Positions 1,499 through 40,101 of a DNA stretch of 64,000 nucleotides are shown piece by piece. Under the pieces are notes generated by a model. The model did no database searches. It was not told where the DNA came from and saw only the letters and a program-made list of their open reading frames with translations. Both the position numbers and the translations under genes were made by a program. Origin of the DNA: Nitrospirota bacterium (GTDB lineage: Bacteria; Nitrospirota; Leptospirillia; Leptospirillales; Leptospirillaceae). Location of the stretch: contig JAMCWM010000026.1 of the NCBI GenBank assembly GCA_023481175.1, positions 124,001 through 188,000 on the forward strand. Reading direction: 5' to 3'. Every line of letters starts with the position of its first letter. The stretch's first letter is position 1.

Positions 1499-2734
1499 CT
1501 AGAATACGAATTTCTTGTCCGGAAAGATGGTCTGGAGGATCATTTCAGTGGGCATCGACATTCCTCCGTACACTCTCGGACCAGGAACGATTTCGGCCTT
1601 GCAATGGCCGTAGAGGGCCGTCACGATTTCGCGGTGGAGCCACCCCATATAATTGAATTCAGGGACGAGAATGCGCTTTGCATGCTTGCATGCCGCTCGC
1701 AGTTCCGGGGTGGGGAAGGGCCGGATGGAGCGGACCTTGATGAGCCCCACCTTGGTGTTGTGCTCTTCCTCCGCCTGGCGGACGGCTTCGCGAGACTGGG
1801 AAACGGCGCTTCCGGAGGCGATCAGCATGATTTCCGCATCGGGGTTCACGACCTCGATCAGTCCTCCCATGTACTTGTTGATGTAGCGCCGGGCCCGCTC
1901 GTTGGCGGCCCAGACCTCCTGCTGCCAGGAGGCATGGACCTGATAGCTGATGAAGTTGCTTTTCTGGATCGGCGCGTCACGGGAAAGACGTGCCGGCGGA
2001 TTTTCGTTGTCCATCGCCGGGACGGCTTCGGCATAGGGATCCCTGGGCTGAAGCTTGATATCCTTCGAGGGGAGATTCACATATCCCCGGGCGTGGGTGA
2101 CAAAGAAGCCATCGACGGCCACCGCCACCGGGAGGGTGACTTCCGGACGTTCCGAGATGATGAAGGCCTTCATGGTGTAGTCGAAGAAATCCTGCTGGTT
2201 TTCTCCGTGGAGGAGGATGATTCCGCAGTTCAGAAGATAGGCCAGCTCGACGTTGTCCGGCTGGATGGCCAAGGGGGCATTCACCACCCGGCACATGATG
2301 AGGAGTACGGCGGGAATCCGGCCACCCGGCCAGGATGCGATCACTTCCATGCCCCGCATGAGTCCCGGACCTGCCGTGGCGGTCATGGACCGGGCTCCGG
2401 CCCGGGAGGAGCCGGCGATCGCGGACATCACGCCGATTTCTTCCTCTCCCCGGTAGTATTCCTTGACATATCCTTCCGCCCAGAGGGATCCGACCTGCTG
2501 CATGGTTTCGCTCTGGGGGGTAATGGGGTAGGAGATGGCCACATCGACATTGGAGCGGCGGATCGCCTCCTTTGCCGCCTCCGAACCCGTTATGAAGGCT
2601 CGTTCGCGGGGGGCTTCGAAGAACATGTATTCAGGGGTCACGACCTTCTGGCGGTCCCCTGCGGTCAGTTCGACCTCCTTCGTCTCCGCCGGCTTTTCTG
2701 CCGTGACGTCCTTAACTCCTGCCGAATCAGACAT
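1499..2734 (-). CDS. 2-oxoacid:ferredoxin oxidoreductase, alpha subunit
   Basis: The 411-residue protein carries the pyrimidine-binding domain (SYPITPQSETM near residue 68), the TATAGPGL block near residue 118, and a C-terminal transketolase-type domain (SRDAP to the end). An N-terminal extension of about 45 charged residues precedes the conserved core and is longer than in the paralogue at 40102. The start ATG has AAGGAG just upstream. It is the first gene of the leftward operon alpha-beta-gamma. In families described from Hydrogenobacter and other reductive-TCA organisms such five-gene or four-gene enzymes act as pyruvate or 2-oxoglutarate synthases. The role in carbon fixation is inferred from that knowledge and the PEP carboxylase at 13979. 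Confidence 0.92.
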   Translation of the reverse strand: MSDSAGVKDVTAEKPAETKEVELTAGDRQKVVTPEYMFFEAPRERAFITGSEAAKEAIRRSNVDVAISYPITPQSETMQQVGSLWAEGYVKEYYRGEEEIGVMSAIAGSSRAGARSMTATAGPGLMRGMEVIASWPGGRIPAVLLIMCRVVNAPLAIQPDNVELAYLLNCGIILLHGENQQDFFDYTMKAFIISERPEVTLPVAVAVDGFFVTHARGYVNLPSKDIKLQPRDPYAEAVPAMDNENPPARLSRDAPIQKSNFISYQVHASWQQEVWAANERARRYINKYMGGLIEVVNPDAEIMLIASGSAVSQSREAVRQAEEEHNTKVGLIKVRSIRPFPTPELRAACKHAKRILVPEFNYMGWLHREIVTALYGHCKAEIVPGPRVYGGMSMPTEMILQTIFPDKKFVF

Positions 2735-38982: not shown

Positions 38983-39387
38983 ATGCTTTTTGACGCGGAT
39001 TTGCTTGAACATATCCGGCTGGTTGCCCGGGAAGGAGATGTGTCCGGGGACGACCGGGAAATCGCGGACATTCTTGAATTGCATCCTGAGCTGGCGAGAG
39101 TTTGGAACGATCCTGGTCTGGATCCGGCAAGACCTCTCGAAATCGAGGGCCAGACGGTCAATCCGTTTGTCCACATCGCCCTGCACCTGATCATAGGGCG
39201 GCAGATCCGCCAGGGGGTCCCTTCCGAGGTCAAGAAAGCCTACCTCCATCTTGTGGAGAGAGGGGAGAGCGAGCATCAGGCGCTGCATTTGTTGATGGGA
39301 TGGTACGGAAAGCTCTATTTTGAATCCGTCCGGAAGAGCGATGCCTTTGACGAGTCCCGGTATGTCCAGGGACTGGCCTTTCTCTAG
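38983..39387 (+). CDS. DUF1841-like protein
   Basis: The 134-residue protein has the conserved block NPFVHIALHLIIGRQIRQGVP near residue 60 and SEHQALHLLMGWYGKLYFE near 95. These paired histidines are the feature of the DUF1841 family, whose function is unknown. GGGAG lies before the ATG. It is the last gene of the J-domain operon. Confidence 0.7.
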   Translation: MLFDADLLEHIRLVAREGDVSGDDREIADILELHPELARVWNDPGLDPARPLEIEGQTVNPFVHIALHLIIGRQIRQGVPSEVKKAYLHLVERGESEHQALHLLMGWYGKLYFESVRKSDAFDESRYVQGLAFL

Positions 39388-39697
39388 CGGTTAAGTCCCT
39401 TCGGGAAAGAAGGGGATCCTCTCCCGGAATTTTCGAGGGCATCCTTGACTTTAGCGGTGCCGGGCCTTTAGAATTGACGGACCGTTTCCCCCTTGTCGTT
39501 CTGCCGGACCAGAGAGGTTGAGCTGGTTTCCTGGCCAGATCGGCCGTTATCCTGTCTGGATGCTCTCCGATGACTTTCGATTTCAGGAGGGCCTAGGGGG
39601 GGAATATGTCCGGGTTGACGGTTTTCAGAAGGTCTTCGGTTCGCTGACCCGGCGGAAAAGCATCCTGCCTGGTCCCCTTGCGGATATGCTCGTACGA
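39388..39697. other. Intergenic region upstream of the IS200/IS605-like element
   Basis: No supported gene is present, although several short frames exist. The only structure of note is the boundary with the palindrome at 39703. The 17 bases just left of the element boundary would be the guide of an omega-RNA if the element were transcribed on the minus strand. Confidence 0.4.
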
Positions 39698-39995
39698 TTG
39701 ACATCCTCCCCTCCGTAAACGGAGAGGATTCCTTCCTGCCATCTCCTCTCTTGTTTATGAGGATAGATTGACGGGATGGAACGATCCACCCGCCAACTCG
39801 GAACCTTCGGTTCCGAACAGGCGCTACGGGTCTGCCCGACCCTGAATGTTATCGCCCGGACGTCGAGGATTTTACGGTCCCGACTTCCGGGACCAACCCG
39901 ATATCTTCGGTTGTCAACGAGCTAAAGGAATATAAGCATGTCGGAAAAAGAAATTCAAGATCGCGCTATCCTTCCCCGCCCAGAAAGGCGAGGTT
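39698..39995 (-). mobile_element. IS200/IS605-family remnant (PATE-like) with structured omega-RNA-like body
   Basis: Read on the minus strand the left part (39698-39730) ends in GGGGAGGATGTCAA, preceded by the hairpin CTCCGT-TT-ACGGAG; this is the known right-end layout of IS605-type tnpB elements. Near 39971-39995 a second hairpin (CCTCGCC pairing with GGCGGGG) resembles a left end. In between are four more hairpins: 39773-39791, 39798-39816 (8-bp stem, 3-base loop), 39828-39842 and 39876-39894 (GGTCCCG/CGGGACC). There is no tnpA or tnpB gene. The minus strand retains a short fragment (RVGQTRSAC) that may be a fossil TnpB end. The exact left limit is uncertain. It lies directly before the oxidoreductase operon. 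Confidence 0.5.
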
Positions 39996-40101
39996 TGCCG
40001 CGCATCTGGTCAACCGGGCCTCCCGAAAAGTTGAAGGTTGTACGGCTTGCGGTTTCCGTGGCAGGCCCTTTTCGGATAGCACACAACTAAGGAGTAGAGA
40101 C

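Follow-up and report, generated by a model that had tools for sequence, protein, structure and literature searches.

A transposase-free IS200/IS605-type element in a Leptospirillum-like Nitrospirota bacterium and its probable role as a mobile guide-RNA gene

An intergenic stretch in front of a carbon-fixation operon of a Leptospirillum-like Nitrospirota bacterium resembles an IS605-type transposon that has lost its genes. It lies in the window, by which we mean the whole piece of DNA analysed (64,000 nucleotides of contig JAMCWM010000026.1). The initial annotation of this DNA read the stretch either as a mobile non-autonomous element or as a stand-alone guide RNA with an omega-RNA-like fold. 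We asked which of these readings holds and what occupies the middle of the element. Its features, in the order in which they follow one another on the minus strand, are:

40009-40013, minus strand: target or TAM-like pentamer TTGAC, left of the left end (LE); TTGAT at the second copy and in the empty relatives, TTGAT being also the TAM of ISDra2 TnpB (PMC8612924)
39698-40008, minus strand: whole element of 311 bp, from LE (40008) to the right end (RE, 39698); second copy 97% identical, empty sites in three relatives
39963-40008, minus strand: LE, an imperfect hairpin, GCGCGGCAAACCTCGCC..GGGCGGGGAAGGATAGCGC; the same LE stands beside tnpA-bearing copies of the same genome (81-91%)
39953-39958, minus strand: -35-like TTGAAT, 18 bp before the -10-like box, a match to the consensus only
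39929-39934, minus strand: -10-like TATATT; 19 of 38 homologues have, no more than 23 nt upstream, a hexamer with at least 5 of 6 letters of TATAAT, where shuffling leads one to expect 6.3
39910-39922, minus strand: boxA-like GCTCGTTGACAAC, resembling GATCATTGACAACT of the rrn leader and ITS of the same family
39864-39909, minus strand: 5' domain with P1 (39909-39903 with 39870-39864) enclosing GGTT and the hairpin P2 (39894-39888 with 39882-39876); 85.1 bits with covariance model R2, and covariation
39698-39842, minus strand: omega-RNA (putative TnpB guide scaffold) including RE, with a remnant of the tnpB C-terminus; aligned to tnpB 3' ends, covariation 0.263 against 0.125 +/- 0.011 when shuffled
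39681-39697, minus strand: putative guide TCGTACGAGCATATCCG in the flanking DNA, placed by the TnpB guide rule (PMC8612924)

Borders, target site and mobility

On the minus strand the element ends in GGAGGGGAGGATGTCAA on the 3' side of a hairpin, with its last base at 39698, exactly as first described; its final letters are ...GGAGGATGTCAA, a TCAA terminus. The hairpin proposed for the left end is also real, but the border itself lies at 40008, just after TTGAC and 13 bases further out than the 39995 given originally, as the second copy and the empty sites show. This second copy is located on another contig of the same genome (G000:C15:45744-46059) and matches with an E-value of 1e-152; its left junction reads TTGAT|CAAATGCGC. 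G005, G007 and G013, three genomes from this genus, have the intergenic region without the element, and the joined flanks of the window align to these without a gap across GGTTGA(C/T) with 76-77% identity, so that a target duplication is absent. Our search for further copies retrieved copies or relatives in 18 of 61 genomes, the similarity to another genus having an E-value of 1.9e-28. The genome is a draft, with estimates of 89% completeness and 6% contamination; since the locus is orthologous to that of the relatives, the window is not a contaminant at this place.

A TTGAY target, a TCAA right end, hairpins close to the termini and the lack of a target duplication are together the signature of single-strand transposition in the IS200/IS605 family. 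ISDra2, for which TTGAT is both target and TAM (PMC8612924), may be compared with the TTGAY found left of LE in the present element. As the initial annotation had stated, neither tnpA nor tnpB is present, profiles PF01797 and PF07282 having no match in the window; both profiles match elsewhere in the same genome, with nine Y1_Tnp places, and the LE of about 45 bases also adjoins Y1-transposase genes of this genome, which read toward it. The element thus shares its LE and RE with autonomous copies, occupies a fixed short target with no duplication and with an empty site in relatives, and has no internal transposase gene while tnpA is encoded elsewhere in the genome, all of which place it among the non-autonomous IS200/IS605 elements. 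Its mobility, one of the two original readings, is supported by the ends, the second copy and the empty sites. Transposase-free IS605 elements (PATEs; PMC3119063) are already known, as are omega-RNAs. The PATEs of Haloquadratum are similar in their IS605-like ends, near-terminal palindromes, lack of target duplication and large number, but the accessible part of that account (PMC3119063) describes them as deletion remnants, with neither a promoter, nor a boxA-like motif, nor a conserved 5' RNA domain.

The right part and its tnpB relatives

Over its right ~145 bases the element aligns (about 67-79%) with many elements of this genome and of its relatives, in each case with the stretch that reaches from the end of the tnpB TNB domain to the right end. 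An omega-RNA core that overlaps the 3' end of tnpB is the usual arrangement, and in the intact relative L088 (genome G016) this core begins 38 nt ahead of the stop codon of tnpB. The minus-strand RNA from 39921 to 39698 folds with -100.9 kcal/mol, compared with -77.3 +/- 4.7 kcal/mol for shuffled sequences (z = -5.0). From 15 aligned right ends we obtained a multibranched fold, closed by CCTGTT/(GG)CAGG, with compensatory, two-sided changes in 13 of 37 pairs and pairing in 97.6% of cells; its covariation score of 0.263 exceeds both that of shuffles (0.125 +/- 0.011) and that obtained with slid partners (at most 0.089). Because of this covariation and the alignment of the right ends, the omega-RNA-like fold is real and common to tnpB-linked omega-RNAs. 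Covariation of the fold and homology to the 3' tail of tnpB lend support to a putative stand-alone guide RNA, and the two readings first offered as alternatives fit the data together. Further copies and covarying pairs, on the existence of which the initial annotation had staked its case, both exist.

Within Rfam, HEARO, RAGATH-18 and the group I intron have no match on the element even at relaxed E-values, and an identity as IStron (group I intron) or HEARO was dropped as no model matched. Only HgcC (RF00062) comes close, with a score below threshold (24.2 bits against a gathering score of 50, E 0.0027), its model aligning to the RE hairpin and the GGAGGA.GUCA end and matching poorly in its 5' part. 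These sub-threshold matches are found at 39685-39793 of the window (minus strand) and at 1637-1746 of locus L120 (minus strand). It is possible that HgcC, which is archaeal, is in fact an omega-RNA of TnpB. Altae-Tran et al. are said to have reported, in 2021, stand-alone omega-RNAs for IscB-type systems, in which the guide RNA is separate from the nuclease gene. The guide RNA is separate here too; the IscB scaffold is different, and HEARO has no match on this element. A further likeness is to the omega-RNA or reRNA of TnpB (ISDra2, PMC8612924; AmaTnpB, PMC10278001), which combines a scaffold from the tnpB 3' end and RE with a guide from flanking DNA. In contrast to these, the putative RNA of the element lies outside any tnpB mRNA, with a leader domain and a promoter-like sequence of its own.

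A TnpB in trans, sought following the initial annotation, is encoded elsewhere in the genome and also in all 13 carrier genomes checked, which weighs little because tnpB is common. The tnpB genes found in this genome with a matching right end are all partial, some stopping at contig edges and the copy on C5 being truly short, and longer open frames are present in G009 and G016. In G100 the only tnpB found (L181) has a right end unrelated to that of the three stand-alone RNA copies of the same genome, a sign that a cognate TnpB cannot be seen in every case.

The centre of the element: a promoter-like sequence and a 5' domain

Between the element ends, in the place usually taken by tnpB, are the promoter-like pair TTGAAT-18-TATATT, the motif GCTCGTTGACAAC and a compact P1/P2 fold. 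This conserved 5' domain, overlooked by the initial annotation, is the most unusual part of the element. P1 (CGAAGAT/ATCCTCG, with one mismatch) surrounds GGTT and P2, a hairpin of the form GGTCCCG-GAAGT-CGGGACC that is followed by GTAAA. At other loci of the same family the stem letters of the P1/P2 block differ and the pairing is intact. In an alignment of 34 diverse sequences, built without structural guidance, 13 of 14 pairs have two-sided changes and 94.4% of the P1/P2 cells pair, with a covariation score of 0.632 as compared with 0.193 +/- 0.016 for shuffles and at most 0.162 for slid partners. The domain matches no family in Rfam 15 at curated or relaxed thresholds. An alternative fold R1, with an outer stem GTTG/CGAC and an AACC/GGTT hairpin, was rejected, its outer helix having no two-sided change where P1 has five in the same alignment. 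The centre is also neither a tnpA-tnpB intergenic region nor a tnpB 5' UTR, as no tnpB element examined carries it, and a reading frame beginning MSEKEIQDR... (39938, plus strand) was discarded as a gene start, since it lies within the element, overlaps the promoter-like sequence and is not conserved as a frame. The -10 match is weak or missing in several Leptospirillum-type copies.

The motif that precedes P1 is similar to boxA in the rrn operons of the respective host lineage and appears to track it: the rrn leaders and ITS of the window's family contain GATCATTGACAACT and the 5'-domain RNAs there CTCATTGACAAC or CTCGTTGACAAC, and the Bacillus rrn ITS contains TTGTTCTTTGAAAACT and the Bacillus element copies GTTGTTCTTTGAAAACT. 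What the element shares with boxA leaders is the motif itself, rrn-boxA-like and near the 5' end of a presumably untranslated RNA. CRISPR arrays preceded by boxA are known, and in an engineered array boxA raised the precursor crRNA about ten-fold (PMC7862264). In such CRISPR leaders (Stringer et al. 2020, cited in PMC7862264), as in rRNA leaders, a boxA-type motif likewise precedes an untranslated (guide) RNA, but the motif studied here is found inside a transposon-like element and is followed by P1/P2. By analogy, the leader may act in antitermination. TnpB trims the 5' side of its omega-RNA (PMC10278001), for which reason a leader ahead of the omega core would not necessarily interfere with guide loading.

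We consider it probable that the element is a mobile stand-alone guide-RNA gene of PATE-like kind, moved by TnpA, used by a TnpB made elsewhere and provided with an rRNA-type leader that sustains its transcription. The element could be of this kind and its 5' domain could nevertheless act in cis as a sensor or in processing (riboswitch, ribozyme or RNase site), its likeness to boxA being incidental. The compactness of P1/P2 is compatible with such a function, as is the AAC before P1, which can pair with GTT inside the domain to give a possible pseudoknot; the letters of this pairing hardly vary, for which conservation of boxA could be the explanation. However, there is no matching Rfam class and the motif varies with the rrn boxA of the lineage, and we regard a sensor or processing role as unlikely.

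Occurrence in other genomes and possible maintenance

A pattern scan of GTDB for the 5' domain returned four loci in Nitrospirota MAGs and, unexpectedly, one in a Bacillus (L116), which a covariance model built from Leptospirillum-type copies recovered with E = 6e-9 within its own genome. The same model found ten more copies in two genomes of the family of L116, and model R2 detected the domain in 31 of 399 genomes of the order Bacillales (E <= 1e-3), with up to 12 copies per genome and several genomes having 5-12. A phylum-wide sample for this Bacillus gave 9 positive genomes out of 399 (E <= 1e-4), one of them already known. Within the window's phylum the domain occurs in 7 of 396 genomes, all among the 21 of its own family; the other 375, in none of which the covariance model found it, double as a control of specificity. 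Five plasmid records have DNA similarity to parts of the Bacillus element, the best places bearing no annotated feature. One carrier with a plasmid copy is Peribacillus asahii.

Most copies read in Bacillus-type genomes lie in elements of ~400 bp that follow TTTAT and consist of an LE hairpin, a -10-like box, the boxA-like motif, P1/P2, an omega-RNA core (GTAGAGCCTGC...GCAGGAATC) and an RE hairpin such as AAGTGGTGGGTAGTTCAA, after which the flanks are unique. For the LE and RE of these elements there are matches, at ~70-92%, in tnpB elements of their own or related genomes; the promoter and 5' domain have no counterpart in those tnpB elements. Other copies have quite different right ends (GTGGGAGTGTCAA, ATGTGAGGTTCAA, GGGGAGGTTCAC), and because of these differences the leader looks like a module that is combined with different omega-RNAs. 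By description, the repeats bcr1-bcr18 of Bacillus cereus (PMC6542083, PMC3446304) may be likened to the Bacillus-type elements, as they are small, dispersed and linked to TTTAT, and some are transcribed and structured.

A passive deletion derivative, in which fused IS605 ends are moved by TnpA and the omega-RNA fold is left over with no RNA function, would fit the way in which PATEs are known to arise by deletion of the core (PMC3119063), and the RE part indeed still encodes the tnpB tail. The centre, however, does not consist of residual tnpB or tnpA sequence but forms a domain of its own, conserved by covariation between two phyla and in most cases combined with a promoter-like sequence and an omega-RNA end. 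Retention of such a centre is not what one would expect of a passive remnant, and we find this origin quite improbable.

If the element is instead the mobile guide-RNA gene that we favour, the tnpA and tnpB of an IS200/IS605-type element would have been replaced by a stand-alone omega-RNA gene. A TnpA from elsewhere would recognise the LE and RE hairpins and move the single-stranded DNA to the 3' side of TTGAY, a step for which the ends and empty sites are observed here and the mechanism is borrowed from the IS200/IS605 family. We infer that the element is transcribed and that TnpB loads its RNA: RNA polymerase may start at the promoter-like sequence at 39958-39929 and read away from the carbon-fixation operon, and the boxA-like motif and P1/P2 at the start of the RNA could protect the untranslated transcript from early termination and perhaps decay, as in rRNA and CRISPR leaders. 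To judge from known TnpB, a protein supplied from elsewhere would bind the omega-RNA core, remove the leader and draw its guide from the ~16 nt of flanking DNA next to the element. After excision the RNP could then cut the empty site, TTGAC followed by the guide, and repair from the sister copy would restore the element, which would in this way hitch-hike on both TnpA and TnpB.

The same RNA could serve other ends, as a decoy that loads or titrates TnpB, or as a regulator that, by way of its guide and a dead TnpB (TldR-like), silences a host gene, with no part in maintaining the element. Two stand-alone copies in different Leptospirillum-type species, L119 (G009:C38) and L122 (G003:C43), apparently occupy one and the same locus, their flanks being alike on either side, and would suit a regulator, as would G069 and G071, which retain the domain before a host gene with no RE. 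Most copies of the 5' domain are nonetheless dispersed, with unique and unrelated flanks after RE, and therefore have no common guide; a decoy or regulator, too, has little probability in our estimate. Chance hairpins in GC-rich DNA, for which nothing but the GC content speaks, are refuted by the copies, homology, empty sites and covariation.

Returning to the mobile guide-RNA gene, we tentatively propose, as a possibility, that it represents an uncatalogued class in which transposon ends, a promoter, an rRNA-type antitermination leader with the conserved P1/P2 domain and an interchangeable omega-RNA are combined and in which TnpB in trans keeps the element; the class would extend over Leptospirillum-like Nitrospirota and Bacillota and include several different RE types. 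The leader domain, its spread across phyla and the rRNA-like motif were found neither in Rfam nor in the open literature; most subscription papers lay outside this search and we claim no priority. TnpB guide RNAs are normally regarded as by-products of tnpB mRNA. If the proposal is true, selfish elements can live off the RNA-guided nuclease of another element, as MITEs live off transposases, and such RNAs would represent a step between omega-RNA and the separately transcribed guides of CRISPR-type systems. The likeness of the leader to that of rRNA points to a common way of producing long untranslated guide RNAs, and the covariance model is a direct route to collecting many natural copies.

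The neighbouring operon encodes a 2-oxoacid:ferredoxin oxidoreductase (POR_N, TPP_enzyme_C, POR); its start codon (40102) lies 94 bases from the corrected LE. An effect of the element on its expression, raised in the initial annotation, is possible; the putative promoter of the element is directed away from the operon, and ~90 bases beside the operon start codon are conserved in relatives that lack the element. A small gene of the DUF1841 family is also located beside the element (38983-39387 of the window, plus strand).

Several copies elsewhere deserve mention in their own right. The locus shared by L119 and L122 looks like an old insertion that has been retained. At L164 (~1501-1568, minus strand; G069) and L165 (~1501-1571, plus strand; G071) the 5' domain lies directly before a small host gene (MKVMFFVDRYFFLEKQ...), for which it may have been co-opted as a leader. 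An enlarged P2 hairpin in L155, L157, L158 and L224 bears GCGAAAACCAAGC or a close variant, a mobile sub-motif that in other copies (for example, L140 and L142) is present in the next hairpin downstream. L126 and L121 (G016:C57 and G016:C54) represent another kind of tnpB-less element, present in two copies, in which the same leader is combined with a different LE and an RE ending in GAGCCGTGAGGAGCAGTCA; the flanks of the two copies diverge at both ends. Finally, L124/L089 (G002:C9) is a degenerate copy followed by a tandem repeat with a unit of ~15 nt (CCGGCTTATACGGGT), to the left of the domain as printed.
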